DNA of 64,000 nt from Clostridia bacterium (GTDB lineage: Bacteria; Bacillota; Peptococcia; DRI-13; SM3-B62). Both the position numbers and the translations under genes were made by a program. Position 1 is the stretch's first letter. Each line of letters starts with the position of its first letter. Where the stretch lies: assembly GCA_018432615.1 (NCBI GenBank), contig JAHDSQ010000011.1, forward strand, positions 1 to 64,000, given 5' to 3'. A model generated the notes under the pieces. The model searched no databases. It had not been told where the DNA came from and saw nothing but the letters and a program-made list of their open reading frames with translations. Below are positions 290-14,764 of this stretch, piece by piece.

Positions 290-1582
290 CTATATTAAAT
301 TCATTTTTTTTGCTTTTGCCTTAAGTTCTAATCGGAAATCCGGATGAGATATTGCTATTAATTCATTCGTTCGCTGTTTGGCTGATTTTCCTCGTAATTG
401 TGCCACTCCATACTCAGTGACAATATAATTTACCTCATTTTTTCCGGTAGTAACATGAGCACCTAGTGCCAGTGTTGGAACAATTCTTGAAATCGTACCA
501 TTTTTAGCTGTGGATGGAAGCATTATAAAGGACTTGCCATCTTTTGAAATATTGGCAGCCCTTACGAAATCTAATTGTCCTCCTGAACCACTGTAAGGAA
601 TATAACCTAAACTTTCAGAACAACATTGTCCTAAAAAATCAACTTGTAAAGAACTATTTATACTAATTAATCTATTATTTTTACCAGCAATATATGGGTT
701 ATTGACAAAATCAACTGGATGCATTTCTACTATATTATTACGATGTATAAATTCATATAATTTCTTACTACCCAGTGCAAATGTAGAAATTATCTTACCT
801 GGCATGAAGTTTTTTTTTGTATTGGTTACAACTCCCGCTTCAACCAATGTTAAAATTCCGTCGCCTAGCATTTCACTATGCACACCTAATTCTCTTTTAT
901 TAACAAGTTTTGTCACTACCGCATTAGGAATAGCCCCAAATCCTACTTGAATTGTAGAACCATCCTCAATAAATTCGGATACATAATTAGCCATCTCCTC
1001 CTCAATCCTTCCAACTTTTGGAGGTTTTATTTCATACAATGGCCTATCATCTTCCACAACAGCTGTTACCTGCGAAACGTGGAGTAAATTATTCCCATAT
1101 GCATATGGGACGTTAGGATTAATCTCCAATATCACAGTTTTAGCTTTCTCGGCAGCCGCTAACGCATAATCTGTTCCTAAACTCACTGAAAAATATCCTT
1201 TTTTATCCATAGTAGAGGCTAACGTTGTGAAAACATCACACGAAATATAATCCCTTCGAATCAATTCCGGTATTTCACTGAGGTTAGTAGGAATAAAATC
1301 CATCCACCCTTCCTGTCCACCTTTACGAGTAGCAGAACCATAGTATAATGACATTTGTTGAATATTACCAACTGTTTCGTGATCATAATAATCAAAATGA
1401 AGTTGGGCTAAAATCTGACTGACTTTTACATTATTATAATTTCGGCGATATTTAGATAAAGTTTCTAAGATCGTTGGTGGTTCGCCAATCGACACAATTA
1501 TACTGTCCCCATTTTTAATTAATTTAACAGCTTGATCAGCAGAAATTAGTTTTCGTTTATATATTTCTTTATATATATTTAT
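290..1582 (-). CDS. Acetyl-CoA hydrolase/transferase family CoA-transferase (4-hydroxybutyrate/acetate type), start codon disrupted
   Basis: Family I CoA-transferase that moves CoA between acetyl- or succinyl-CoA and a carboxylic acid. The C-terminal half shows the family's GSGGQLDF motif, the VTEYGVAQLRGKS block with its glutamate, and the closing SHPDFR segment. Reading from the GTG at 1495 gives 401 residues and loses the N-terminal family block. Extending upstream recovers KEIYKRKLISADQAVKLIKNG in frame, and about 430 residues in total match the family's usual length. No ATG, GTG or TTG exists in that extension: the frame opens at an ATA (1582). A perfect AGGAGG (1599-1594) precedes an ATG at 1589 that is one base out of frame and meets TAA at once. 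It is the last gene of the HMG-CoA reductase/TRAP run. It may activate an imported acid or acetoacetate, which is inference. Confidence 0.85.
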   Translation of the reverse strand: MNIYKEIYKRKLISADQAVKLIKNGDSIIVSIGEPPTILETLSKYRRNYNNVKVSQILAQLHFDYYDHETVGNIQQMSLYYGSATRKGGQEGWMDFIPTNLSEIPELIRRDYISCDVFTTLASTMDKKGYFSVSLGTDYALAAAEKAKTVILEINPNVPYAYGNNLLHVSQVTAVVEDDRPLYEIKPPKVGRIEEEMANYVSEFIEDGSTIQVGFGAIPNAVVTKLVNKRELGVHSEMLGDGILTLVEAGVVTNTKKNFMPGKIISTFALGSKKLYEFIHRNNIVEMHPVDFVNNPYIAGKNNRLISINSSLQVDFLGQCCSESLGYIPYSGSGGQLDFVRAANISKDGKSFIMLPSTAKNGTISRIVPTLALGAHVTTGKNEVNYIVTEYGVAQLRGKSAKQRTNELIAISHPDFRLELKAKAKKMNLI

Positions 1583-1589
1583 TTTACAT

Positions 1590-2041
1590 GTCCCCTCCTG
1601 CCCTACTAAATTATAATTGTATATCCCGATATGAAATTTTCAAACCAGCGAATTGAACACTTTTTCTACAAATACTCTCCCATTGACAGTTAAAAGACCA
1701 CATGATAGCTTAAAAATTTGTTCGTAGACAAGACTGTGTAACACCGAGAGGTGACCCGTTTTCCGGAGAAAATTATGCTATTAACATCAAGTCCTCTGGA
1801 AAACCGAGCGATAAACTTCTAGAGTTTGAGGGCAGAACCTTCTATAGCCATAAAACTGTTTCGGATTATCCGTCAACAATACAACACCCTCTTTCATAGA
1901 GTATTTATCGTCGTAAATAATATTAGGATTCATACACAGTACGATATGAGATAGTATCCTATCTATGCAGGTCACCCCGGTTTTATAATGTCAAACATCT
2001 TCATATCTAATATTAATCCACGGAAGATAATCAGAATATAT
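1590..2041. other. Intergenic region without a convincing gene
   Basis: A 452-base AT-rich gap between two CoA-transferase genes on the same strand. It contains a Shine-Dalgarno sequence for the downstream gene (1594-1599) and a 62-codon minus-strand frame (1787-1975) with a GTG start, no clear ribosome binding site and no recognisable domain. I saw neither a sigma-54 -24/-12 match nor a strong sigma-A promoter here. It could hold a remnant of a lost gene. Confidence 0.4.
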
Positions 2042-3241
2042 TTATATGACACCTCTATCTCGAAGATCTTTTAATTCCTTAGGACCAATGCCTAAATATT
2101 TTTTATAAACTGTTTCATTGTGCTCCCCAATGTATGGTGCCGGCCCTATTGGCTCCGCTGGTGTTTCACTCATCTTAATTGGCTGCCCAATCATGCCAAT
2201 TTTGCCAACTGGGTACTCATATTCAAGAACCATTTCCCTTGCATTTACATGAGGATCTTTCACTACCTTTGATACATCATTAATCGGAGCTATTGGCAGT
2301 TTTTCTGCTAATCCTTCCATGAGTTCATTAATAGTATATTGTTTAATCCAATTTTCAAGTTTAGGTTTTACTCTTTTTTCATAAACATCTTTGACATTGC
2401 GTTTTTGCATTGTCTCAATCCCAGGTTCATTTGCAAATTCAGGTTCGCCAAAATATTCACATGCAATTTTCCATAATTTGTCCGTGTAACCCCCAAAAAA
2501 GATATATCCATCTTTTGCTTTGAAAGAACCATATGGCATTACAAATGGATGTTCATTACCCATCGGTTTTTGTATCGTACCTTCCATTATATAATTCGTA
2601 ACCATCGTTTCTGTTATCGCAAGAGTAGTATCAACCTGAGCGATATCAACGAATTGTCCTTTTCCAGTTTTCTTTACATGATGTAGAGCAGTAAGTAAAC
2701 CAATAGAAGCAAAAAGCGAAGCTGATAAGTCTCCAATAATTGTTCCTACACGAACAGGTGGTCTGTCTGGATATCCATTTATTGACCAAATACCACTTAT
2801 CGCTTGAGCTGAATTATCAAATGCCGGACGACTTGAATAGGGACTTTTATGTCCATATCCTGAAATTGCAACATATACTATTTTCGGATTAATAACTTTA
2901 AGCACTTCATAATCTAATCCTAATTTTTTCATTACACCCGGCCTATAGTTTTCTATTACAACGTCAGCTTTTTTTACTAATTTTTTAAATATATCTTTGC
3001 CTTCCGGTTCTTTTAGATTTAATGTAATCCCTTTTTTATTGCGATTATATTGAGCAAAATATCCACACATTTTCGACTCGCCTTCTCCGACATATGGAGT
3101 AAAGTTTCTTGCTTCATCTGGTGAATTTAATGACTCAACCTTAATGACCTCAGCCCCTAAATCAGCAAATATCATTGTACAAAAAGGACCAGCTGCATAT
3201 TTTGATAAATCAATAATGGTGATATCATTTAAAGGTTTCAT
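2042..3241 (-). CDS. CaiB/BaiF (class III) CoA-transferase
   Basis: The 399-residue product has the class III fold signature: N-terminal LNDITIIDLSKYAAGPFCTM, GAEVIKVE, YNRNKKGITLNLK, and VRVGTIIGDLSASLFA, whose aspartate is in the position of the catalytic Asp of formyl-CoA transferase. The C-terminal part has the usual VKDPHVNAREMV segment. These enzymes move CoA between carboxylates (formate/oxalate, carnitine, succinate/itaconate and others). The substrate cannot be read from sequence. Its place in the TRAP/MaoC/HMG-CoA reductase cluster suggests that it activates the imported acid. It starts at ATG behind a weak GGGAG and has 243 bases of AT-rich DNA upstream without a clear promoter. 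Confidence 0.93.
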   Translation of the reverse strand: MKPLNDITIIDLSKYAAGPFCTMIFADLGAEVIKVESLNSPDEARNFTPYVGEGESKMCGYFAQYNRNKKGITLNLKEPEGKDIFKKLVKKADVVIENYRPGVMKKLGLDYEVLKVINPKIVYVAISGYGHKSPYSSRPAFDNSAQAISGIWSINGYPDRPPVRVGTIIGDLSASLFASIGLLTALHHVKKTGKGQFVDIAQVDTTLAITETMVTNYIMEGTIQKPMGNEHPFVMPYGSFKAKDGYIFFGGYTDKLWKIACEYFGEPEFANEPGIETMQKRNVKDVYEKRVKPKLENWIKQYTINELMEGLAEKLPIAPINDVSKVVKDPHVNAREMVLEYEYPVGKIGMIGQPIKMSETPAEPIGPAPYIGEHNETVYKKYLGIGPKELKDLRDRGVI

Positions 3242-3484
3242 ATTTTACATCTCCCATTCATATTATTTTTATTTGTTAAGACCAATTTTTCTAACCTAAT
3301 AATAGCTTTCAAGCGTTTTCTTTTTTTCTCAACCCCAAAATGATTTTCCAAACAGGCTTTAGGCTATATCTGCCTATATATTTAAAAAAATCTTTTCGAC
3401 AAAATGAAAATACGTGACCTCTATTTTAGCACTTAAATATAAATTGTTGTTTTTATTAAATACTAAGACATTCTTCTTAACTCT

Positions 3485-4261
3485 TTACCTGTTTTTTATC
3501 GTATAGCTTTTTTGAAGTCCTTCCCTAACATCTACTTGTACACTATAAGGTGGTATCGGATAACGCAACCCATTTTTGCTTAAACTCTCCATTCCATCAA
3601 TAGCTTTTAATAAATCTTCTGGCGTAACTGTCATTAGCATCTCATCATCATTAACCCCAGAATATCTTCTTTCTCCAAAACACGGAAGTGACATGCTCGG
3701 TTTCCCAGTGGCAATAGCTCTTCCCCACGCGTCAGAACAAGTAGATTCTCCAACCACACTCCATTCAAATTTTTGAAAACCTGAATATTGTAAACCTGCA
3801 ATGAATATAAACATTTGACCAGGCGTTGCATAAAAAAGACAAACATCTGGTGGATTTAACCGATTTGAAGTAAGTGGAGAAACAACCATCGCTTCATATT
3901 TACCATAAGGAACATGATAATGAGCTCTTTGATGAGCTGCTGAATCTTCGTCTTTATCATACCAAACACCTGTATACATTTTCCCTCCAAGCCATTCCTC
4001 ATTTCGCGGAACTAGACCTAGGATTCCTGCGCACTGATTATCTGGAAAATTTTCTGGTGATACTCCAACTGTCCACCCCTGCCGAACAGCTTGCCCCACC
4101 GCTTGACAGGCAAGTATAATATTTTGGGGTATACGTATTTTTGGTATATTAATTAAATCCTCTTTTTTCTCTAATAACTTCATTCCTATTGGTACGTTTC
4201 TTAATTTCAATAACTTATTAAGCCTTCCTGTTATTTCCTTCCAATCGTATGAATTGTTCAT
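3485..4261 (-). CDS. DUF169 family protein
   Basis: A 258-residue soluble protein of the DUF169 (COG2043) family. Recognisable parts are the N-terminal NVPIGMKL stretch, the ACQAVGQAVRQGWTVG block, a central GKYEAMVVSPL segment, and a C-terminal half with several cysteines (ESTCSDAW, SLPCFGERR). The biochemical role of the family is not established. Members occur beside catabolic and metal- or redox-linked genes in anaerobes. Here it lies between the TRAP large permease and the CaiB gene with a good ribosome binding site (GGGGAGGAG), so it probably belongs to the same transcript. I assign no function. Confidence 0.85.
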   Translation of the reverse strand: MNNSYDWKEITGRLNKLLKLRNVPIGMKLLEKKEDLINIPKIRIPQNIILACQAVGQAVRQGWTVGVSPENFPDNQCAGILGLVPRNEEWLGGKMYTGVWYDKDEDSAAHQRAHYHVPYGKYEAMVVSPLTSNRLNPPDVCLFYATPGQMFIFIAGLQYSGFQKFEWSVVGESTCSDAWGRAIATGKPSMSLPCFGERRYSGVNDDEMLMTVTPEDLLKAIDGMESLSKNGLRYPIPPYSVQVDVREGLQKSYTIKNR

Positions 4262-4433
4262 AATTTCTCCTCCCCTATTTATAATTTTTGCGTCTCCTCT
4301 AAAATCAGGATGTTTTTATCCAGTTACCAAACCCACGTAAGCTTAAGAAACCAACTATTCATCATAGTTCTATTGATTCACATGTCTAAATACCCATTTA
4401 TATTGCCGCTCTATATAAAATTAGTGCTTTTCA

Positions 4434-5714
4434 TCATTTCAGCGCATACGGTAAAAATGTGCTGATCTTTGGAATTAAAATAAATATTACCAGAGCTACA
4501 ATATATGAAATAAGATAAGGAACAACTTCTCTAGTCACTTCGTCCACCGGTGCATTGCAAACTCCTGATGCAATATATATGGATAACCCAAATGGTGGTG
4601 TTATTTGTCCTATTTGCATACATAGAATAAGCACTACGTTAAAATGTAGCAAATCCACTCCTGATGCTATTAACGCAGGATAAACGATAGGTACAGTTAA
4701 ATAAAGTATCGGTAGCGAATCCATGAAACAACCTAAAACTAAGAATAACAAAGAAACAACAAAAATTAACATTGTCTTACTTAATCCCAGGCTAAGAATC
4801 CATGCGCTTACATTTTGCGGAATCTTTGCATATGTAATAGGATTAGCAAAAAGCATCGCGCTAGCCACCAAAATAAAAATCATAGCATTAGTATTAACAG
4901 TATTAAATAGTGATTGTTTGAATTTCCCCCAGTCCAAGGTCCTATATATTAACCCACTTATAAGAAAAGCATATGCTACGCCCAGTGCTGCTGCCTCTGT
5001 TGGTGTAACAAAACCAGAATATATCCCCCCCAAAACTGCAACTGGCATTAATAAAGCAGGAATACTCATTAAAAAGGCCTTTTTCTTGTATTCTGAGGTT
5101 TGCATATGATCAGATATCTTAACTGTAATACCTTTAGGACTATTTCTATAACTTACAACAATTAGAAGCAATCCTAGCAAAATTCCAGGTACTATCCCGG
5201 AAATAAACAGTTCACCAACATCCCTTTGCACTAACGAACCGTAGACTATCATATATATACTTGGCGGTATCATCTGTCCTAATGTTGAGGATGCGGCTAA
5301 TAGTCCTGCACAAAATCTATTGCTGTAACCTGCTTTCCTCATTTCAGGAACCGAGAGTTCGGCTACCCCTGCTAAAGTTGCAGCAGAAGAACCTGTTATC
5401 GCTGCATAAACCATACTAACTACCACTGCAGTTATAGGTAAACCTGCCCTTTTTTTCCCGAAAATAGAATTTACAAAATTATAAATGTATTCGGATGGCC
5501 CACAAGAAGCCATAATATTGCCTGCCAACAAAAAGAATGTTACGGCTGTTAAAGTAAAACTATCAATACCTCCAAAAAAAGTAGTTGGTATATTAATTGT
5601 TGTGGACCCTATTGATAACAACAAAAGGAAAATAGCACCTGTAGACAGTGCAACCCATATTGGAATACCTATCACAAACAATACTAGTGTTCCTATCAAT
5701 CCTATAATTAACAT
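4434..5714 (-). CDS. dctM: TRAP transporter large permease (DctM-like)
   Basis: A 426-residue hydrophobic protein with about 12 predicted membrane segments. It shows DctM hallmarks: AAITGSSAATLAGVAELSVPEM near residue 110, LGQMIPPSIYMIVYG near 150, VTPTEAAALGVAYAF near 235 and ITPPFGLSIYIASGV near 375. This is the ion-coupled transport subunit of a tripartite ATP-independent periplasmic transporter working with the DctQ and DctP proteins encoded just upstream. The spacing to dctQ is 34 bases. TRAP systems import organic acids; with HMG-CoA reductase in the same run, mevalonate or a related hydroxy acid is a plausible load, which is inference. Confidence 0.95.
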   Translation of the reverse strand: MLIIGLIGTLVLFVIGIPIWVALSTGAIFLLLLSIGSTTINIPTTFFGGIDSFTLTAVTFFLLAGNIMASCGPSEYIYNFVNSIFGKKRAGLPITAVVVSMVYAAITGSSAATLAGVAELSVPEMRKAGYSNRFCAGLLAASSTLGQMIPPSIYMIVYGSLVQRDVGELFISGIVPGILLGLLLIVVSYRNSPKGITVKISDHMQTSEYKKKAFLMSIPALLMPVAVLGGIYSGFVTPTEAAALGVAYAFLISGLIYRTLDWGKFKQSLFNTVNTNAMIFILVASAMLFANPITYAKIPQNVSAWILSLGLSKTMLIFVVSLLFLVLGCFMDSLPILYLTVPIVYPALIASGVDLLHFNVVLILCMQIGQITPPFGLSIYIASGVCNAPVDEVTREVVPYLISYIVALVIFILIPKISTFLPYALK

Positions 5715-5748
5715 TATCTATCTAACACCTCCTTGTCCTTAAAATAAT

Positions 5749-6243
5749 TTATTTTTTTATCTGTTGTAGTTTTCGTAATAAATCAATAAACCTTAGTATA
5801 CAAAATACAAACATTACAGCCATTGATATTGGGATAGTGGCATAAGGCAAGTAGAGTGGAAACGCTAAGCTAGCTGTTTTTGCGCCAATAGAACTCCTTA
5901 CTAGGTCAATACTATAAAGAAATATTAAAAACGAACATATTGTAGAAAATATGTTTTCAATTAAATAATAATAATACTTGCTTTTAATATTTTTTATCTT
6001 TGAAGGTACTAAATCCATAACAATATGTTTGCCATTAAAAATCATTGGACCGCTTCCTAATAAAGCTGCAAAAATTACTAAGTATCTTATAAGCTCCTCC
6101 CCCCACTCAGGAGAATAACCAATCAAGTAACGCGAAAGTGTTATGAAAAACACAAGGACTGCTGCAAACATTATTTCTATTCCTGCAACAACATTTATAA
6201 CTTTTGATATTTTTTCTACTGCAACACTAGTATTAAAATTCAT
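5749..6243 (-). CDS. dctQ: TRAP transporter small permease (DctQ-like)
   Basis: The 164-residue protein has four predicted membrane helices and the family pattern: an arginine/tyrosine-rich loop after helix 2 (TLSRYLIGYSPEWGEELIRY) and NGKHIVMDLVP before helix 3. DctQ is the small membrane subunit that pairs with DctM. The gene sits between dctP and dctM, as is usual. It is separated from dctP by 176 bases that contain a 13-bp inverted repeat. Confidence 0.93.
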   Translation of the reverse strand: MNFNTSVAVEKISKVINVVAGIEIMFAAVLVFFITLSRYLIGYSPEWGEELIRYLVIFAALLGSGPMIFNGKHIVMDLVPSKIKNIKSKYYYYLIENIFSTICSFLIFLYSIDLVRSSIGAKTASLAFPLYLPYATIPISMAVMFVFCILRFIDLLRKLQQIKK

Positions 6244-6309
6244 GTTTAGTGTACACCCCCCTCTTATTTTTAATAATCAAAATGTACTTTTGCAAATATA
6301 AGCATTACA

Positions 6310-6399
6310 TCACATGACGAGGTTTAACGCAATCATAAACATAATTAAATTTCAGCTGTTTTTATCTCAACATTCTTCCGTTTTCCCCTCGTCATGTGA
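6310..6399. repeat. 13-bp perfect inverted repeat with a 64-base loop between dctP and dctQ
   Basis: TCACATGACGAGG (6310-6322) is the exact reverse complement of CCTCGTCATGTGA (6387-6399). In the minus-strand transcript it lies just after the dctP stop. No good U-tract follows, so it is more likely a stability or processing element that keeps the solute-binding protein mRNA abundant relative to the permease mRNA than a full terminator. A protein-binding site is the alternative. Confidence 0.6.
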
Positions 6400-6419
6400 C
6401 ACATTAAGAAATTATTTTT

Positions 6420-7496
6420 TTATTTTTTTAATTCGTCACCCACCCTAATGACCTCATCAACTAATTTCTGAGCTTCTGACCCTGCTGCTTCTACGTACAT
6501 CTTAATCGCATCTTCGCGAATGTTGTTGTAATTGGCCCAATCTTCTAATTCATCATCCGGAATTAAATAAACTTTTACACCATACTCACTTTGAAGTTTT
6601 TCTAACGCTTCTTTCTCTAATTTTGCAGTTTCCGTATTAGCGTACTCTATTGCCTTGGGCATTACCTTTGTTTGAATTATATCCTGCAGGTCTTCAGGCA
6701 AAGAATCCCACCAGTCAAGATTAACAATCAAAGGAATATCGTAACATCTGACATTTGTAGCTGTTAAATAATCTGTAATCCATTTTGCATCGTAGGAATG
6801 TAAAGTCGCACTTTGAAGACCATCTACAATTCCTTGAGTTAATGCCACAGGCACTTCTGGACCAGCAACAGTCACAGCGTTTGCACTTAATTTATCCAGT
6901 ACAAGTTTGCCGAACATGCCACCCGGATGCCTAACTTTCAATCCAGCCATATCCTCAGGTTTTTTAATTTCACGTGCATTGTTTCCTAATATATAGTGCC
7001 CGTATTGAGTATTTAAAACCCCTAGCCTGTATATGCCTTTTTCTATTAATTTTTCCCTTAATGTTGTTTCAATCAGACTATCCCATTGGTTTAAAATGTC
7101 ATATTGCTCTGAATCTCCCGGTTTGGTGTTCCAGAGAAAGGGCAAAGTGTATATTGCCGCTAAAGGTTCAATTGCCTCCACCATTCCTTCTATACTCAAA
7201 GCAGCTTCAACTGTTCCGCTCTGAACCATGCCCACTTCCTTATCTATTGTACCCAACTGGGAATTAGGATAAATATCTACAATCACTCGGCCATTTGTTT
7301 CCTTCTCAACTAATTCCTTGAAATATATTGAATTGCGGCCATGTTGTGTTGTGTCAGGATAGGAGTGCGCAAGCTTCATTGTATATACCTTTTCCTCATT
7401 AGGCGACGTTTCTGCAACCTCTTTTGAACATCCCGGGAGAACTAACGCAACAACACATAAAAACACTAGTAGAGTAAATAATACTTTTTTCTTCAT
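6420..7496 (-). CDS. dctP: TRAP transporter solute-binding lipoprotein (DctP-like)
   Basis: The 358-residue protein has a lipoprotein signal (MKKKVLFTLLVFL..., lipobox LPGC, Cys about residue 23) and a DctP core: YTMKLAHSYPDTTQHG, NSQLGTIDKEVGMVQSG, and a central GLKVRHPGG in which the conserved arginine that pairs with the ligand carboxylate is present. EVPVALTQGIVDGLQSA marks the second lobe. It captures the substrate outside the membrane for DctQM. The ATG follows a clear GGAGGG. An 86-base gap separates it from the upstream MaoC gene. Confidence 0.95.
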   Translation of the reverse strand: MKKKVLFTLLVFLCVVALVLPGCSKEVAETSPNEEKVYTMKLAHSYPDTTQHGRNSIYFKELVEKETNGRVIVDIYPNSQLGTIDKEVGMVQSGTVEAALSIEGMVEAIEPLAAIYTLPFLWNTKPGDSEQYDILNQWDSLIETTLREKLIEKGIYRLGVLNTQYGHYILGNNAREIKKPEDMAGLKVRHPGGMFGKLVLDKLSANAVTVAGPEVPVALTQGIVDGLQSATLHSYDAKWITDYLTATNVRCYDIPLIVNLDWWDSLPEDLQDIIQTKVMPKAIEYANTETAKLEKEALEKLQSEYGVKVYLIPDDELEDWANYNNIREDAIKMYVEAAGSEAQKLVDEVIRVGDELKK

Positions 7497-7582
7497 TAAC
7501 TTCCCTCCTGTTTTTTAATAATATTGTATTATTTAGTTAAGTAATACTCATGATTCCTATTATCACCCTCCTTATAAGTTTT

Positions 7583-8005
7583 TTATTTTTCGCGGGCAGG
7601 CATAGTAACCGCAGTCCCCGTTATTACCACTTTCCCATCCTGGTTTGTACATGTAGTTTTTAAGGTCAATCTGTTTTTTTCTTCGTTCTTTTCAATAACT
7701 TCTACCTCTGCAGTAATTACGTTACCTATAAATACCGGATATTTAAATTCTATATCTTGACTTACATAAATTGAGCCTGCTCCAGGCAGTTCACTTCCTA
7801 AAAGTCCTGCCATTAGGCTCACCCCGAATAGCCCCTGAGCGATACGTCTTCCAAATCTTGTATTTCGCGCATATTCTTCGTTAATATGAATAGGATTCAT
7901 ATCACCTGTATTGCCAGCGAAAACCAGGAGTGCACCTTCAGTTATTTCACGTGATATCGAAGCTTTTTGCCCTATCTTGATATCTCGCATCGTTAAACAT
8001 TTCAT
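7583..8005 (-). CDS. MaoC-like (R)-specific enoyl-CoA hydratase
   Basis: A single hot-dog domain of 140 residues. It carries the hydratase motif FAGNTGDMNPIHINEEYA, with the Asp and His of the active site, followed by RFGRRIAQGLFG. Enzymes with this motif add water to, or remove it from, CoA-bound 2-enoyl/3-hydroxyacyl substrates. I chose the ATG at 8005 because AAGGAGTG lies directly upstream; a longer frame opens at a TTG (8050) without such a site. In context it could hydrate 3-methylglutaconyl-CoA to HMG-CoA or dehydrate a 3-hydroxyacyl-CoA. That assignment is inference. Confidence 0.88.
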   Translation of the reverse strand: MKCLTMRDIKIGQKASISREITEGALLVFAGNTGDMNPIHINEEYARNTRFGRRIAQGLFGVSLMAGLLGSELPGAGSIYVSQDIEFKYPVFIGNVITAEVEVIEKNEEKNRLTLKTTCTNQDGKVVITGTAVTMPAREK

Positions 8006-8050
8006 AATATCACTCCTTAAACATATTTTATTAAAGCACCACAAACCCAA

Positions 8051-9316
8051 TTATTTCTTTGTTAATTCTTTTATCAATTCCTGTGCGTAATCCATTCTGA
8101 CTTTTTTCTCTTTAACCATAACCTCTACTACCTGATCGAGAATATCGGCGGTGGCACCGGCCATAATCGCCACATTTCTAGCATGCAACGACATATGTCC
8201 TCTCTGGATGCCTTCGGTTGCCAGAGCGCGCATGGCAGCAAGGTTCTGTGCCAATCCCACGGCGGCAATCACTTCTCCCAATTCAGCGGCGGATTTAACC
8301 CCGAGTATTTTTACAGCAATCTTTGCTATTGGATGCACCTTGGTTGCCCCTCCTACCAAACCAACGGCCATGGGTATTTCAATCGAACCAACCAAATTGC
8401 CTTCCTCATTCTTTTCCCAAGTTGTTAAAGGACGGTAAACCCCGGTCCTGGCAGCATAACAGTGAGCGCCGGACTCAATGGCCCTTGTATCATTGCCTGT
8501 TGCAGTGACTATTGGAGTAATCCCGTTCATAATGCCCTTATTATGAGTAACCGCCCGATATGGATCAGCATCAGCAAAGGCATAGGCCGCTAACACCCCA
8601 TCCACGACCTCCTCGCCTCCCAGCGCATTCTTTGTTATTTCTGCACGAGCCCGAACCAGTCTTTTGTCCGCCAAATTAGAAAGAATGCGAAGATAAACAC
8701 GCCCTCCGGTGATTCTTTCCACATACGGTGCAACGGCTTCTGCCATTGTATTTACAGTGTTTGCTCCCATTGCATCTAATGTATTGACAACTAAATGTAA
8801 AACCACCATTGGTCCAACAAGAGAATCAAGAACCCTAACCTCCAGATCCTTCATGCCTCCACCCAAAGAAATAAGCATGGGGTCTTTTTCATTAGCAATC
8901 TTAATAATCTCTTCTTTGTTCTCCAATATTTTCAGTTTTGTATTAAATGGATCTTTAACATTAACCACTTGTACTTGAGCCATCATAATAGAACCGGTAT
9001 TGCTCGCAAAGAAACCTCCCGCTTCCCGGGCCATTTTGGCGGCATTACTGGCTGCAGCAACCACTGAAGGTTCTTCTATAGCCATGGGAATTAAGTATTC
9101 TTTCCCGTTAATCATGAAGTTAAGAGCCACACCCACGGGTAATTGAAATGCACCAACTACGTTTTCGATCATATGGTCTGCTTGGGAAATATTAAGTCCT
9201 CCTGTATCCAACATAGACTTTTGTTCTTCTGCTGTTAGATTGGCAAACTCTGCTACTTCCTTCAGTCTCTCCTCGACCGTTAACTTATAAAACCCCGAGA
9301 AACTACTTGTTTTCAT
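8051..9316 (-). CDS. mvaA: Class II hydroxymethylglutaryl-CoA reductase (degradative type)
   Basis: The 421-residue enzyme interconverts mevalonate and HMG-CoA. Its whole layout fits class II reductases such as the catabolic one of Pseudomonas mevalonii: ENVVGAFQLPVGVALNF (51-67), IEEPSVVAAAS with the catalytic Glu (about 81), DAMGANTVNTMAEAVAP (181-197), HNKGIMNGITP with catalytic Lys260, GNDTRAIESGAH with Asp276, and GHMSLHARN with the catalytic His near 378. It is the first gene behind a sigma-54 promoter. Neighbours include a TRAP importer, two CoA-transferases and HMG-CoA lyase, and no HMG-CoA synthase or mevalonate kinase is nearby, which favours oxidation of mevalonate over isoprenoid synthesis. 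Its base composition looks richer in G+C than the transporter genes downstream. Confidence 0.96.
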   Translation of the reverse strand: MKTSSFSGFYKLTVEERLKEVAEFANLTAEEQKSMLDTGGLNISQADHMIENVVGAFQLPVGVALNFMINGKEYLIPMAIEEPSVVAAASNAAKMAREAGGFFASNTGSIMMAQVQVVNVKDPFNTKLKILENKEEIIKIANEKDPMLISLGGGMKDLEVRVLDSLVGPMVVLHLVVNTLDAMGANTVNTMAEAVAPYVERITGGRVYLRILSNLADKRLVRARAEITKNALGGEEVVDGVLAAYAFADADPYRAVTHNKGIMNGITPIVTATGNDTRAIESGAHCYAARTGVYRPLTTWEKNEEGNLVGSIEIPMAVGLVGGATKVHPIAKIAVKILGVKSAAELGEVIAAVGLAQNLAAMRALATEGIQRGHMSLHARNVAIMAGATADILDQVVEVMVKEKKVRMDYAQELIKELTKK

Positions 9317-9398
9317 AAATTAATCCTTCCCTTCTTTAATAATTTAAAAAAGCCCTTTCTCTTGAAGATATCCTAGCAATAACATTCACCCACATAAC

Positions 9399-9416
9399 TT
9401 GCAATTCACATGCCAA
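9399..9416 (-). promoter_or_regulatory. Sigma-54 (-24/-12) promoter for the HMG-CoA reductase operon
   Basis: On the minus strand the site reads TTGGCATGTGAATTGCAA: TGGCA and TTGC with exactly ten bases between the invariant GG and GC. The predicted start is near 9389, giving a leader of about 70 bases before the ATG at 9316. The nearby sigma-54 activator gene supports it. Confidence 0.82.
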
Positions 9417-9497
9417 GATAGCAAAAAAACGATATTTAGACAGGGCACTGCGTTTTTGATAAAAAACCTTTTTTCAAAAAAGGCTTTTGTTTACCTT

Positions 9498-9620
9498 TGT
9501 ATACTAGACCCGGTATTGTTTTATATTGTTTTGTTCTGTAACACCTCATATTCAGCAATACTTTCAGCTATATTGCATGTGTATACAAGTTTTGATTCTA
9601 TTTGTTTACATTTATATACA
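9498..9620. promoter_or_regulatory. Candidate upstream activator sites (TRTATACA repeats)
   Basis: TGTATAC at 9498-9504, the full palindrome TGTATACA at 9580-9587 and TATATACA at 9613-9620. They lie between the two sigma-54 promoters, about 110-230 bases from each start, where bacterial enhancer-binding proteins usually bind. Short AT-rich sites recur by chance, so binding by the adjacent activator is inference. Confidence 0.35.
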
Positions 9621-9721
9621 CTATTATCGGGCGTATTATTATTAGTAAATATATTAGAGTTTCATATCACCGATCTTTTACTTTTTCCTTCTGAAACCTA
9701 AGCCCATAATCTATCAACTCC

Positions 9722-9789
9722 ATAGTATTGAGCAAATCAATAAATTCCTTTGGCATAAATGTTGCAATACAAACTTCTCACAATACTAT
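9722..9789. repeat. 9-bp inverted repeat flanking the plus-strand sigma-54 promoter
   Basis: ATAGTATTG (9722-9730) and its exact reverse complement CAATACTAT (9781-9789) bracket the -24/-12 element, with 50 bases between them. It could be an operator pair or a hairpin in DNA; the second arm falls inside the short 5' leader. Confidence 0.35.
9750..9767 (+). promoter_or_regulatory. Sigma-54 (-24/-12) promoter for the DRE-TIM lyase gene
   Basis: TTGGCATAAATGTTGCAA has TGGCA and TTGC with ten bases between GG (9752-9753) and GC (9764-9765). Transcription should start near 9777, 36 bases before the ATG at 9813 and just upstream of the TGGAGGTGA ribosome site. It shares the TTGGCAT...TTGCAA pattern with the divergent promoter. 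Confidence 0.85.
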
Positions 9790-9812
9790 TTTGGAGGTGA
9801 ATACAAACTCTT

Positions 9813-10895
9813 ATGTTCAAAAAACCAGAAAAAGTCTACATTGGAGATGTTACTATCCGTGACGGTTTCCAACATGAAGAAAAATACGTTTCTTTAGATG
9901 CCAAAACTACTTACGCTGAATTGCTAATACTGGCGGGTGTAAAGCGCTTGGAATTGACAAATTTCGGTAATCCCTATAGTATGCCGCAGTTTAAGGATAG
10001 GCATGAATTAATGAAACGCGTACGTAACAGTAAACATCTAAAAAAAGCAAATGTTAATTGGGATGAAATTGAGCTTACTGTTGTAACAATTCGCGAACGG
10101 GCTGTGGATATAGCTATTGAGGCAAAAAAAGAAGGCTATGGCCCGGATCGTATACTAATGATGGTCTCAACAGATGAAGAACACCATTATGCTAACTCCG
10201 GAACAACACTGCCGGAATATTGGAAAGAGGCAGAACGCTGTATAAAAAAAGCCCGGGATGTAGGAATCAACATAAACGGTACCGTGAGCACAATTTGGGG
10301 TAGTCCTATCTCCGGTCCTACAAAATTAGAAGACGCGGTTTTATTCGCCAAGCATTGGCTAGAAATCGGAGCACACGACGTCGAACACGCCGACCACGAC
10401 GGTTCCTCCACTCCTGATGATGTTTACAGGTATTTTTCAATGCTTCTGGATGCAATTCCTGATCCAATGAAACACATTGCCCATTTCCACACAACTCGTG
10501 GCTGGGGCTTAGCTAATGTTTATTCGGCCTTGCAAGCAGGAGTGGTTTGCTTTGAAAGCACAATAGGCGGAATTGGCGGACAGCCGGCCAATTTCCTGGA
10601 CGATTGCCCTGTTGCAGGAACAGGGGAATATTATTATAAAAATCCTAATGAGGTAGGTCTTGTTTGCACAGAGGATATGGTCCTAATGATGGAAGAAATG
10701 GGTATTGATACTGGTATTGATTTCGAAAATATTTTTCGAATCGGTATTCTTATAGAAAAAACTTTAAACCGCAGACTCCGTTCAGAATCCATCCGTTCCG
10801 GACCAATCCCCAAAGAACCTAATGAATCCTTTAAAAGGATAGGATTAAAAGAACGCAAACTGGAACAAGGGGAACAACTAAACCAGCGTTTTTAG
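9813..10895 (+). CDS. DRE-TIM metallolyase-like protein (HMG-CoA lyase/isopropylmalate synthase superfamily), atypical active-site loop
   Basis: A 360-residue TIM-barrel protein. The metal and substrate signature is kept: DVTIRDGFQHE (Arg16, Asp17), and HFH (His224, His226) followed by TRGWGLANVYSALQAG. Where HMG-CoA lyases have GGLGGCP with the catalytic cysteine, this protein has GGIGGQPANFLDDCPVAG: Gln257 replaces Cys and a longer loop follows, with a cysteine eight residues later (Cys265). It therefore belongs to a distinct subfamily and may cleave or condense another acyl substrate. The gene has its own sigma-54 promoter and is followed by a hairpin. Database names such as pyruvate carboxyltransferase-like are possible; the reaction is unknown. 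Confidence 0.85.
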   Translation: MFKKPEKVYIGDVTIRDGFQHEEKYVSLDAKTTYAELLILAGVKRLELTNFGNPYSMPQFKDRHELMKRVRNSKHLKKANVNWDEIELTVVTIRERAVDIAIEAKKEGYGPDRILMMVSTDEEHHYANSGTTLPEYWKEAERCIKKARDVGININGTVSTIWGSPISGPTKLEDAVLFAKHWLEIGAHDVEHADHDGSSTPDDVYRYFSMLLDAIPDPMKHIAHFHTTRGWGLANVYSALQAGVVCFESTIGGIGGQPANFLDDCPVAGTGEYYYKNPNEVGLVCTEDMVLMMEEMGIDTGIDFENIFRIGILIEKTLNRRLRSESIRSGPIPKEPNESFKRIGLKERKLEQGEQLNQRF

Positions 10896-10922
10896 TTTTC
10901 TTAACTTCTTTATCCCATATTT

Positions 10923-10959
10923 AAGACTAGATTGTGTAGACAAAACACGCTCTAGTCTT
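10923..10959. terminator. Hairpin between the convergent lyase and activator genes
   Basis: AAGACTAGA (10923-10931) pairs perfectly with TCTAGTCTT (10951-10959), and GTGT/ACAC extends the stem inside. The plus-strand side is followed by CTTTGTATT, a weak U-tract. It may serve both converging transcripts. Confidence 0.55.
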
Positions 10960-10994
10960 CTTTGTATTAATGCCATCTACTCGTAAGTATATGA

Positions 10995-12746
10995 TTATAA
11001 GTTTAGTTCTTTCAGTTTTTTATAAAATGTTCTCCTGCTGATACCTAAAATCTTCATTGCTTCACTTTTGTTGTTATTTGTTTGTATTAAAGCTTCCAGT
11101 ATCGCCCTTTTTTCCGCATCTTTCACTCTACCCACCAGTGGCTTTGTTTGAGGGCTTTCCGTCCGCCCCTCATTACAGTTATCATCATTTGCCTTTAGAT
11201 ATTCAGGAAGTATCTTAATTGTAATAATATCATTAGCCATCACGACAAGATGTTCTATGACATTTTTCAGCTCACGAACATTCCCCGGCCAATGATAATT
11301 CAGCAAAAATCGCAAACATTCGGGAGAAATGTTCACTTGCTTTTTATACTTATTTTCATAGTATGTTTTATAATTTTCGACCAAATTAAACACATCAATT
11401 CTTCTCTCTCTTAGTGGAGGCAAAGTTATTGTAAATACATTTATCCTGTAAAACAAATCTTCTCTGAATTCCTTCATTTCGATCATCTGAGAAAGGTTTT
11501 TATTAGTAGCGGAAATGAATCTGACATCAATTTTTTTCGACTTCATTCCTCCCACTCTATTTAACTCTTTATCCTGTAAAAACCGTAATAGTTTTGTTTG
11601 CATAGTAAGAGGCATATCGCCAATTTCATCTAAAAACAATGTGCCCTCATTAGCCTGTTCAAATTTCCCAATTTTACCGCCTTTTCTTGCACCGGTAAAA
11701 GCCCCTTCTTCATACCCGAATAATTCGCTTTCCAACAGATTATCTGGAACAGCAGCACAATTAAGTGAAACAAAAGGTCCATCCTTACGGAAACTAGCAT
11801 CATGAATTGCTTTTGCCAAAAGTTCTTTACCGGTACCGCTTTCTCCAAGAATCAAGACGGGAGATTCTATTGAAGCCACCTTAGCAGCCAAATTGAGCTG
11901 TTTGCGAAGTTTAACACTAGTACCGATTATACTCTTGAAGGAACCCGGAAGTTCATAGCTAGATTTCATTTCATGCGCAAGTAACTTATTAATTAAGTTC
12001 ATTTTTTCAAGTTCAGTCGCAATGTTAGTTATTTTGGTTATATCTGAAAAAGCTGAAATGGCCGCTACTACTTCATCATTGAATTTTATAGGTGTAATAT
12101 TCGCCATTATTAAGATTCCCAAACTCCTGATGTTAATTATTTTACCAACAACAGGCTCTTTTGTTTTTAAAACGTCTAATATTTTTGCCTCTGGCTCTAT
12201 TTTACTTAGTTGACGACCGATTATTTTTTGTATATCTACTCCTAATATATTGCTATAAGCTTTATTAGCATATAAAATCGTACTGCTTTTATCAACAAGA
12301 ATAACTGCGTCGTTTAAATCATCCAGAATACATCTGGCTAAAGAAGTAGGCAGCAAAATCTGGTTCAAAAACTGCTCATCATTCATTATTTCATTTCTCA
12401 ATATTCTATTTTTGACAAATTGCAACATATTTATCACATCAATCAGTTTGCCATCATAATCTGTAATGAATATTTCCGTGTATTGCTCTTTTGTTGAATA
12501 ATATATTTTTATAATGTCATCACTCGTTGTAGGCCTCTGAATGCTAATATAATACTCTGAAATATAAGGCTTTATGTTTTGTTCAGTTTTGTCTGTAAAT
12601 AATATATCCCTAATTCTGACTACTCCTATTAGCTTTTTATCAGGCCCCAAAACAGGTAAGCAAAAATAATTGGTCTCCGTAAACAGTTTTTTAGCCTCAA
12701 TTATATTACTGTCTAAACTTAAGGCCTGGTTAAAAGGATACTGCAA
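10995..12746 (-). CDS. Sigma-54-dependent transcriptional activator with CBS and PAS sensory domains
   Basis: Bacterial enhancer-binding protein of about 583 residues. Order: an N-terminal CBS pair (about 1-125), a PAS domain (about 140-255), an AAA+ domain with Walker A GESGTGKE, the sigma-54 contact loop GAFTGA, Walker [10 protein letters not shown] and the arginine-finger region, then a Fis-type helix-turn-helix at the C-terminus ([20 protein letters not shown]). The TTG at 12746 has GGGGGTGA upstream; a TTG at 12773 would add nine residues. With two sigma-54 promoters 1.5-3.4 kb away it is the obvious regulator of the HMG-CoA cluster. CBS pairs often bind adenine nucleotides or CoA-like ligands, so energy or metabolite sensing is possible. 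Confidence 0.93.
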
Positions 12747-12781
12747 GAAAATCACCCCCCATTGAATTATCAATGAACTTC

Positions 12782-12810
12782 ATTATATCAAAACAAATTC
12801 TAACTGTCGA
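12782..12810 (-). promoter_or_regulatory. Sigma-A promoter for the sigma-54 activator
   Basis: On the minus strand TCGACA (12810-12805) and TATAAT (12787-12782) are spaced by 17 bases, about 35 bases upstream of the TTG start. The perfect -10 and ideal spacing suggest constitutive expression of the regulator. Confidence 0.55.
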
Positions 12811-12828
12811 TGACAAGGTTACCACCTG

Positions 12829-13728
12829 TTATCGGTTGTCAATATTCGTTCCCTCAATATTCATTTGATTAATCTTATTCTTTACAAGTTCTGATGCCTT
12901 CAAAAGTTGAGATAGATCAACCCCTGTCTTTATTTTCATTTGTTCCAGCATATTGATCAAATCCTCCGTGGCAATATTACCGACCGCACCGGGAGCAAAA
13001 GGGCACCCCCCTAATCCTCCTATCGCAGTTTCAATATAATTAAACCCTTGCTGTAAAGCAACCAGTACATTGGCTAAGCCCATACCCTGGGCATCATGCA
13101 GATGTAATATAAAACCAATGTCCTGGTATCTTTTTTTGAGTACACTAAGCACTTCTGTAATTTGCTTAGGATTAGCCGTACCGATAGTATCGGCTAAAGA
13201 TATTTCATCAACGCGGGACTCAAGGCCCGCGTCTATCATTTTAATGACTTGCGCAAGCGGTACATCACCCAGGAAAGGACAGCCAAAGGCCGTAGCAATT
13301 GCCAGCTTTATTTTTAATTTCGGATATTGGTTTCTTATGGCCTCTAAATCAGCAAAGGATTCCTTAATCGTCCTCTTTACATTCTCCCTATTATGCCTCC
13401 AGCTGACCGAAATAACATAAGTTATCTTCCTTATCCCCGCCTCCCAGGCCAGTCCCGCTCCCTTCAGATTCGGAACAAGGGCTGAAAACTCTACATCTTT
13501 ATACTCCCGGCACTCCCGGAGTATCCAATCCACAATTTCACCGGCATCTTTCATTTGTGGTATATCTTTGGGATTTACAAAAGAGGTTAACTCAATCTCT
13601 TTAATACCGGCTTTAAGCAGAGAGGAAATTACCGTAATTTTTGTCTCAGTAGGAATCCAGGTGTTTATGTTCTGAAAACCATCCCGCGGTCCTACCTCTA
13701 TGATATGCACCGTATCCGGCAATTTCAT
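12829..13728 (-). CDS. Hydroxymethylglutaryl-CoA lyase
   Basis: The 299-residue enzyme splits HMG-CoA into acetyl-CoA and acetoacetate. All active-site elements are present: VGPRDGFQN (Arg15, Asp16), the metal histidines in ILHLHDAQGMGLAN, and the cysteine loop GGLGGCPFAPGAVGN. I chose the ATG at 13728 because AAGGAG precedes it at proper distance; the longer frame to 13812 would overlap birA. It follows birA by 28 bases with no visible promoter between, so it may be read from the birA promoter. Together with the HMG-CoA reductase it forms a complete route from mevalonate to acetoacetate. Confidence 0.94.
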   Translation of the reverse strand: MKLPDTVHIIEVGPRDGFQNINTWIPTETKITVISSLLKAGIKEIELTSFVNPKDIPQMKDAGEIVDWILRECREYKDVEFSALVPNLKGAGLAWEAGIRKITYVISVSWRHNRENVKRTIKESFADLEAIRNQYPKLKIKLAIATAFGCPFLGDVPLAQVIKMIDAGLESRVDEISLADTIGTANPKQITEVLSVLKKRYQDIGFILHLHDAQGMGLANVLVALQQGFNYIETAIGGLGGCPFAPGAVGNIATEDLINMLEQMKIKTGVDLSQLLKASELVKNKINQMNIEGTNIDNR

Positions 13729-13756
13729 TTCTTTGGTCTCCTTCCTAAACACTAAA

Positions 13757-14764
13757 TCAATCCTCTTGAAAATATCCCCCTCGTTCATCCCGCAAGGACA
13801 CATCACCGGCAATGATACTCTCTATCTTTCCATTTTCGGTCTCGACCAAAAGACACCCGTCTTCCGCTATATCCCTGGCCAATCCCCCGAAAGTCCTTTC
13901 CTTAGTAATGACCGTCACCTTTTTCCCCAGTACACAATTCAACCTACGCCATTTCTTAAGGACTGCCGAAAATCCTTCTTTTAAATAAGACGTATATTCT
14001 TCTTCATAATGTTTTGCTATCTCCTGGAATAATTCTGCACGCCTGATAGGCCCCTTAAGTTCTGTCGGGAACTGAGCCAAAGATGTGGCAATATCCCTGA
14101 TTTCCTCCGGGAATTGTTCTCTTGTTTGATGGACGTTGATGCCGATACCCATAACTATATAATTGATTTTTTCTACCTCTGCACTCAACTCCGTCAGTAT
14201 TCCACACACCTTTTTCCCTTTCAGCAATATATCATTGGGCCACTTGATACTGACCGGCAAGCCGGTATACTCGCGAATTGCGGAACAAACGGCTACGGCA
14301 CCGACAAAGGTTATTTGTGAGGCGTACAGCGGCTCGTACTCCGGTCGCAGGATCAGTGAAAAGCAAAGACTTAAACCGTAATGAGATTCCCATCTGCGTC
14401 CCATCCTTCCTTTGCCGCCTTTTTGTACTTCGGCTAACACCACTGTTCCTTCCGGTTCCCCTTTTTCGGCAAGTTTTTTAGCTTCCTCATTTGTCGATGA
14501 AACTTCCTGGTAAACAAAAAGATTTCTGCCCATAAAGTTAGTCGTAAGTCCCAACCTAATTTCCTCCGGAGAAATGATATCGGGACGCTCCAACAAACGG
14601 TAGCCCAGCCGGGGTTTTGATTCAAATACATATCCTTCCTTTTTCAAGCTTTTGATATGCTTCCAAACAGAGGTACGAGTCACCCCTAATTTATCGCTTA
14701 TTTCTTCCCCTGAAAGATATCGGCCCTTTTCTTTTAAAAGCAATCCTAAAATAGCTTCTTTCAT
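13757..14764 (-). CDS. birA: Bifunctional biotin-protein ligase / biotin operon repressor
   Basis: The 335-residue protein joins biotin to carboxylase biotin-carrier domains. The N-terminal winged helix (residues 1-60, ISDKLGVTRTSVWKHIKSLK) marks the repressor-type BirA. The catalytic part has the biotinyl-AMP loop GGKGRMGRRWES, IKWPNDILLKGKKVCGILTE and a C-terminal SH3-like domain ending in GDVSLR. A bio operator was not found in the window. It starts the minus-strand gene pair birA-HMG-CoA lyase and is divergent to rpmB. Confidence 0.97.
   Translation of the reverse strand: MKEAILGLLLKEKGRYLSGEEISDKLGVTRTSVWKHIKSLKKEGYVFESKPRLGYRLLERPDIISPEEIRLGLTTNFMGRNLFVYQEVSSTNEEAKKLAEKGEPEGTVVLAEVQKGGKGRMGRRWESHYGLSLCFSLILRPEYEPLYASQITFVGAVAVCSAIREYTGLPVSIKWPNDILLKGKKVCGILTELSAEVEKINYIVMGIGINVHQTREQFPEEIRDIATSLAQFPTELKGPIRRAELFQEIAKHYEEEYTSYLKEGFSAVLKKWRRLNCVLGKKVTVITKERTFGGLARDIAEDGCLLVETENGKIESIIAGDVSLRDERGGYFQED

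Follow-up and report, generated by a model that had tools for sequence, protein, structure and literature searches.

A probable sigma-54-controlled unit for mevalonate catabolism, with an unusual HMG-CoA lyase-like protein, in a Clostridia bacterium

We analyzed a 64,000-nucleotide stretch of DNA, referred to here as the window, from a Clostridia bacterium (GenBank assembly GCA_018432615.1, contig JAHDSQ010000011.1, positions 1–64,000). Window positions 290–13728 hold a group of genes that probably forms a sigma-54-controlled unit for the catabolism of mevalonate. The unit contains a class II 3-hydroxy-3-methylglutaryl-CoA (HMG-CoA) reductase (HMGR; 8051–9316, minus strand), a canonical HMG-CoA lyase (HMGL1; 12829–13728, minus strand), a sigma-54-dependent activator (10995–12773, minus strand), a tripartite ATP-independent periplasmic (TRAP) transporter, and a DRE-TIM protein that resembles HMG-CoA lyase but lacks its catalytic Cys (HMGL2; 9813–10895, plus strand). 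HMGL2 is divergent from HMGR; all other genes of the unit lie on the minus strand. This second lyase is the most interesting part of the unit. A first-pass annotation, made from the DNA alone, had listed these genes and read them as a sigma-54-controlled mevalonate pathway. Profile matches and open reading frames (ORFs) bear out its gene list, with one DUF169 gene missed, and its catabolic HMGR, sigma-54 control and canonical lyase hold up in the analyses below. Its acetoacetate-activating CoA-transferases and the supposed uniqueness of the unit do not, and the second lyase, correctly noted as present, was treated as an aside although it is the most unusual part of the unit.

HMGR matches TIGR00532 at 510.8 bits (cut-off 259.95) and is the one HMGR match in the window's genome, a 3.16-Mb assembly rated 100% complete with 3.36% contamination. 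All 86 HMGRs of our alignment, this one among them, retain the catalytic Glu, Lys, Asp and His. The direction of the reaction is indicated by the rest of the genome. The first-pass annotation had named HMG-CoA synthase and mevalonate kinase, together with a missing or incomplete methylerythritol phosphate (MEP) pathway, as what would speak against catabolism. HMG-CoA synthase was not found in the genome, and the sole mevalonate kinase match scores 28.1 bits, below the cut-off of 163.05; Dxr, by whose search alone the MEP pathway is represented here, is present at 487.9 bits. Together these results argue that the window HMGR is very probably catabolic. Dxr is also present in all four, and HMG-CoA synthase in none, of G012, G010, G024 and G310, four other genomes of the phylum that carry related units. 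A biosynthetic HMGR, in a unit that would supply mevalonate for isoprenoid synthesis, is highly improbable. Archaeal sequences are numerous among the nearest HMGR matches listed, and these are presumably biosynthetic, but HMGR here clusters with an importer and a lyase, and the searches for Dxr, HMG-CoA synthase and mevalonate kinase in a genome rated complete contradict a biosynthetic role, which we rejected on the strength of those searches.

Within the class, HMGR was found in 4 of 46 genomes, the window's own included. The unit of G012 (locus L089; same genus, HMGR 95%) has the CaiB-type CoA-transferase, TRAP, MaoC, HMGR, HMGL2, activator and HMGL1 genes in identical order. The unit of G024 (L090; another family of the order, HMGR 79%) has the same set with CaiB shifted beside HMGR and without HMGL1 in the stretch; the HMGL1 of G024 (54%) is located elsewhere in its genome. 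Because the set is kept in both genomes, the clustering is not due to chance. The units of G010 (L091), G310 (L110) and Clostridium bovifaecis (L003) combine HMGR, a lyase and the activator with a TctA-family transporter rather than TRAP.

A wider comparison drew on the best 80 of at least 574 HMGR relatives. From 37 bacterial HMGR loci (32 of the 80 plus L089–L092 and L110; archaeal and Chloroflexota loci excluded), L056 and L065 were removed after the ORF filter had lost their HMGR. In the remaining 35, with genes grouped by single linkage and counted within 7.5 kb, HMGR is accompanied by HMGL-type genes (13 loci), TctA-like genes (11), DctM-like genes (8), CaiB-like genes (7), an activator of the window type (7) and a GntR-like gene, labeled by eye (18). 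In Proteobacteria, HMGR lies close to HMGL and to TctA or TRAP genes, and CaiB homologues occur near HMGR in five proteobacterial loci. Uptake, HMGR and lyase thus form a recurring pattern, of which the sigma-54 form is a variant. A complete unit of this kind had been thought unusual for a Clostridium-like anaerobe; the five equivalent units and the proteobacterial combinations of HMGR, lyase and transporter speak otherwise. In the HMGR tree (86 rows, five duplicates of 91 having been removed) the window sequence pairs with G012, and an unresolved fork connects this pair to G024 and the named Bacillota rows L002 and L003. The Pseudomonas and Chloroflexota rows belong to a group of which the window sequence is not part.

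Two of the HMGR relatives stand in other settings. G012 has a second, long-branched HMGR-like ORF (L092, G012:C22, 9607–10824; 54% to the window HMGR) among BKACE, PanE-like reductase, DUF1097 and SMP-30/gluconolactonase genes, and it has possibly turned to another substrate. In L002 (6610–11263) the Sporomusaceae HMGR (72%) adjoins aconitase X (both parts) and AtuA genes, which suggests a different HMGR-containing pathway.

The predicted control of the unit by sigma-54 is strongly supported. The activator has CBS, PAS, AAA+ and Fis-type helix-turn-helix domains in Pfam, with GAFTGA within its ORF, and RpoN is present in the genome. We scanned the 64-kb window with a strict −24/−12 pattern, TGGCAYN5TTGCW, and found two matches against 0.16 expected; among 100 shuffled versions, one contained at least two. 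Both lie inside the 496-bp gap between HMGR and HMGL2, each facing its gene: TGGCATAAATGTTGCA (9751–9766, plus strand) faces HMGL2, and TGGCATGTGAATTGCA (9400–9415, minus strand) faces the HMGR operon, of which HMGR is the first gene. All three marks of sigma-54 control, an AAA+ activator, RpoN and −24/−12 promoters, are therefore present. The promoters and the activator recur in relatives. Both strict promoters have equivalents in L089 and L090. One strict site precedes the TctA-HMGR-HMGL2 genes of L091, and C. bovifaecis has one before its HMGL1 and one before its HMGR; L110 has no strict site, only one with a single mismatch. Relatives of the activator are found at 85, 66, 62, 51 and 48% in L089, L090, L091, L110 and L003, respectively. 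Between the two window promoters lie two candidate activator-binding palindromes, TGTTTACCTTTGTATACT (9488–9505) and TGTTTACATTTATATACA (9603–9620), both given on the plus strand. They match TGTTTAC-N4-RTATACW, a pattern found twice in the window against 0.10 expected. Palindromes with a spacer of 4 occur twice in L089 and once in L090, and palindromes with a spacer of 3 occur in L091 and L110, upstream of the TctA-HMGR-HMGL2 genes; none was found with the spacer-4 pattern in the C. bovifaecis unit.

In the pathway we propose, uptake of mevalonate, or of a related branched C6 acid, would fall to a carboxylate importer, here of the TRAP type. HMGR would convert mevalonate, CoA and two NAD+ to HMG-CoA, and a lyase would split HMG-CoA into acetoacetate and acetyl-CoA. 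This cleavage may be carried out by the canonical HMGL1, encoded upstream of the regulator gene, and also by HMGL2 under its own sigma-54 promoter. Acetoacetate would be activated and then thiolysed by the products of CoA-transferase and thiolase genes elsewhere in the genome, and free 3-hydroxy-3-methylglutarate (HMG) and 3-methylglutaconate probably enter the common HMG-CoA pool by way of the CaiB enzyme and MaoC. The CBS-PAS-AAA+ activator would bind TGTWTAC-type palindromes between the two divergent −24/−12 promoters. Substrates, direction, the flux-carrying lyase and activator binding are what we infer from the sequence, and the host is taken to be an anaerobe from its kin and gene types.

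Several observations weigh against this reading. The cofactor helix of HMGR reads DPMLISL (Asp...Leu, "NADH-type", the motif being taken from section 7 of PMC13370337); the identical heptad occurs in an Archaeoglobus sequence of the alignment, and the A. fulgidus HMGR is reported to prefer NADPH (PMC13370337). The helix thus settles neither cofactor nor direction, and we dropped it as proof of the latter. A looser promoter pattern, with one mismatch permitted, gives no excess of sites over the window (6 against 8.1 expected), so that only the strict matches carry weight. The enrichment of the palindromes in the window is post hoc, since the pattern was derived from those very sites. The closest PDB match of the solute-binding protein, at 97.3 bits, has a name that gives no ligand, and MaoC and CaiB are absent from the L091, L110 and L003 stretches.

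The solute-binding protein DctP (6420–7496), recognized by family or domain profile and PDB matches, the small permease DctQ (5749–6243; Pfam) and the large permease DctM (4434–5714; TIGR00786 at 369.2 bits, cut-off 268.45) make up the TRAP transporter, all on the minus strand. Directly after HMGR comes a MaoC-type (R)-enoyl-CoA hydratase (7583–8050, minus strand; Pfam MaoC_dehydratas, best PDB match 1iq6), which resembles (R)-specific enoyl-CoA hydratases and could hydrate 3-methylglutaconyl-CoA. The family III (CaiB/BaiF) CoA-transferase (2042–3241, minus strand), kept in L089 and L090, has as its best PDB match a succinate--hydroxymethylglutarate CoA-transferase (9br7, 237.2 bits), nearly tied with YfdE (235.0); its best NCBIfam match, succinyl-CoA:mesaconate CoA-transferase, is below cut-off. 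These matches give a weak lead toward salvage of a branched or C5–C6 dicarboxylate such as HMG rather than activation of acetoacetate, and we propose that the enzyme is an HMG or 3-methylglutaconate CoA-transferase. On contigs C48 and C8 of the window's genome, CoA_trans pairs lie beside thiolases, and a strict sigma-54 match is found close to each pair. The CoA-transferases of the unit, to which the passing of CoA to acetoacetate had at first been ascribed, are thus probably not acetoacetate activators; the CoA-transferase/thiolase groups elsewhere in the genome fit better. The C48 region (L171, 345–15974) combines the thiolases and the CoA-transferase pair with a sigma-54 activator and a BKACE-like gene. 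Its 20-kb stretch contains three strict sigma-54 sites, and it is another sigma-54-type acyl-CoA region of this genome.

The same enzymes raise the question of whether the unit serves chiefly for the breakdown of branched C6 dicarboxylates (HMG, 3-methylglutaconate), with TRAP importing the diacid, CaiB forming the CoA ester, MaoC hydrating it and a lyase cleaving the product, HMGR being a side entry for mevalonate or acting reductively. We consider this unlikely. It would agree with the best solved match of CaiB, nearly tied though that is, and with the presence of MaoC and CaiB beside TRAP in the window, L089 and L090. G024 also has a cluster (L177, G024:C24, 1758–13875) of a TRAP transporter, a CoA-ligase-like pair, an HMGL2 (75%), a BKACE-like gene and MaoC (ligase and BKACE labels by eye); no HMGR was detected in its 14.3-kb stretch, and its gene content suggests a unit devoted to a branched dicarboxylate. 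However, each of the five other units has HMGR together with the activator and a lyase, three of them without MaoC or CaiB in the stretch, and in the window HMGR is the first gene after its promoter. Mevalonate catabolism remains the reading we prefer for the unit as a whole.

HMGL1 matches PRK05692 at 304.7 bits (cut-off 246), scored on 12829–13812; the listed ORF extends to a TTG at 13812, and homology places the start at 13728. Human HMG-CoA lyase requires Arg41, Glu72, Tyr167 and Cys266 and binds its metal through Asp42, Asn275, His233 and His235 (PMC6941031). HMGL1 agrees with the canonical type in R, D, E, H, H, C and N, has Phe at the Tyr167 position and scores 251 bits to 1ydo. We aligned 42 lyase sequences, 20 of HMGL1 type and 22 of HMGL2 type, after dropping one over-long sequence (L065) of 43. 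The short loci L093–L109 and L125–L170 were left out as repeats; they hold four distinct unaligned sequences, two of Cys type (G047, G167) and two of Gln type (a partial one from G120, and one from G047 with a loop lacking GTG). R, D, E, H, H, C and N are kept in 20 of 20 HMGL1-type sequences. At the Tyr167 position 10 of these sequences have Tyr, 9 have Phe and one has Gly, which makes the position a weak criterion.

The HMGL2-type sequences form a separate group, split from the HMGL1 type at 100/100 support. Like the HMG-CoA lyase family, they keep Arg41, Asp42, Glu72, His233 and His235, in 22 of 22; unlike it, they have a longer active-site loop, in which a 19-row alignment shows no variation at the G, G, Q and P of GGQP or at a GTG and a Tyr further downstream. 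In an alignment-based model of HMGL2 (mean pLDDT 85.5; below 50 in loop 269–276), the protein has the fold of HMG-CoA lyase but not its catalytic set. The model matches HMG-CoA lyases with Z-scores of 36.5–40.4 (39.9 for human mHL, 2cw6; 40.4 for the Bacillus subtilis enzyme, 1ydo), and citramalate and homocitrate synthases with about 30. A single-sequence fold (pLDDT 42.2) was set aside for this model.

We give an even chance to the proposal, drawn from sequence comparison, that HMGL2 founds a distinct HMG-CoA lyase family without the catalytic Cys, mostly without the Asn ligand, and with a longer loop of the form GGxGGQP...GTGxYY. Such a family would replace the canonical enzyme in some mevalonate- or leucine-degrading bacteria and duplicate it in others. 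The degradation routes of mevalonate and of leucine both pass through HMG-CoA. At E ≤ 1e-60, HMGL2 is present in 13 of 398 genomes of the phylum, and we compared the neighborhoods of 22 HMGL2-type genes, two of them on short contigs (L117 and L118; 3.5 and 8 kb). The L111 genes and one L120 CoA-transferase were checked against Pfam; the remaining neighbor labels were assigned by eye. Five of the 22 adjoin HMGR, and ten adjoin, or are one gene from, a crotonase-type hydratase (L111–L116, L120, L121, L176, L178). L111–L116 have a carboxyl-transferase-like gene as well, and in L111 Pfam identifies carboxyl transferase, enoyl-CoA hydratase and acyl-CoA dehydrogenase. Such neighborhoods are those of leucine-degradation (Liu-type) clusters; the window unit differs from these clusters in that HMG-CoA would arise via HMGR and in having MaoC instead of crotonase.

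Replacement of the canonical enzyme is suggested by G310 (one contig, 100% complete), where the HMGL1 query finds only HMGL2 (E ≤ 1e-20), as the gene following HMGR. HMGL2-type matches are the only ones in 4 of 16 searched genomes: G310, G312 (99% complete), G120 (97%) and G155 (78%). L091 and L110 have sister HMGRs (100/100) with lyases from different HMGL2 lineages, and the C. bovifaecis unit carries HMGL1, so that the lyase slot looks interchangeable.

Other observations oppose this proposal. The catalytic Cys266 of the GGxGGCP motif is Gln in 22 of 22 HMGL2-type sequences, the window's included; Tyr167 is Ile in 20, including the window, and Val in 2; the metal ligand Asn275 is Leu in 18, again including the window, and Asn in 4. 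HMGL2 thus departs from the HMGL1-type enzymes at three of eight key positions, and at 157.2 bits it is under the PRK05692 cut-off of 246. An HMGL1-type match coexists with HMGL2 in 12 of the 16 genomes and in the window's own, and an HMGL1-type gene directly follows HMGL2 in L111, L112, L113, L116 and L120. With both lyase types side by side, a division of labor or another substrate for HMGL2 is possible. HMGL2 may accordingly act on another CoA ester or a free acid, or be auxiliary, with HMGL1 cleaving HMG-CoA, a tentative reading that we place somewhat below even. Besides the replaced residues, the low score and the five paired loci, it draws on Gln-type and Cys-type neighbors in G047 and on distant members in B12-mutase clusters (L122, L123). 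It sits poorly with the HMGL2 of the G310 HMGR operon being the sole HMGL1-query match in a complete genome, and the different lyases beside the sister HMGRs of L091 and L110, like the HMGL1 of C. bovifaecis, are what would be expected of interchangeable enzymes.

The G047 pair (L129, G047:C194) consists of a Gln-type lyase-like gene, with a loop without GTG, directly before a Cys-type HMG-CoA lyase. The distant relatives in L122–L124 (34–38%) have kept the Asn ligand but not the Cys, and stand among B12-mutase-like genes (L122 and L123) or ketoacid-oxidoreductase-like genes, as labeled by eye.

Mevalonate catabolism by HMGR and HMG-CoA lyase is known from Pseudomonas mevalonii (mvaA/mvaB). 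The window unit shares with that system the proposed chemistry, a class II HMGR (495.5 bits to 1qax, which we take to be the P. mevalonii enzyme) and a canonical lyase, and in the Pseudomonas loci L043, L044, L047 and L050 HMGR directly precedes HMGL. It differs in its sigma-54 activator, where 18 of the 35 bacterial HMGR loci have the GntR-like gene, and in its extra Cys-less lyase, its probably anaerobic lineage and an HMGR outside the Pseudomonas clade. The unit is thus the known P. mevalonii logic with other regulation and transport. Among the open-license PMC papers listed by our searches (subscription papers being outside this coverage), no title or abstract opening dealt with a cysteine-less HMG-CoA lyase, a TRAP transporter for mevalonate or mevalonate catabolism in anaerobes; anaerobic linalool metabolism in Thauera (PMC4847356) came closest.

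Two further minus-strand genes of the window probably lie outside the core unit, as both are lacking from the L089 and L090 stretches. One is the DUF169 gene (3485–4261; Pfam), which has no match among the ORFs of those stretches. The other (290–1495) belongs to the acetyl-CoA hydrolase/4-hydroxybutyrate-type CoA-transferase family (Pfam AcetylCoA_hyd_C, 212.5 bits) and has an uncertain N-terminus. Its frame (290–1700) is open far upstream of the first GTG, with homologous sequence, and no in-frame ATG, GTG or TTG covers the homologous N-terminus; an unusual start, a sequencing error or decay may account for this. The window opens with the first base of contig C25, and the unit may therefore extend past the left edge. 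In L089 (186–3803), methylmalonyl-CoA mutase, B12-binding, MeaB and glyoxalase-fold (epimerase-like) genes lie directly downstream of CaiB. An Rfam scan of the 64-kb window gave no matches.

Mevalonate breakdown is classically known from aerobes. If our reading of the unit is correct, mevalonate would be a growth substrate beyond the classical aerobic lineages, with its use governed by a nutrient-specific sigma-54 switch; the promoters and candidate binding sites of this switch are now specified and open to experiment. A Cys-less lyase clade in the same pathway slot, if confirmed, would mean that this fold has two ways of breaking one and the same carbon–carbon bond, and would sharpen gene naming across many genomes.

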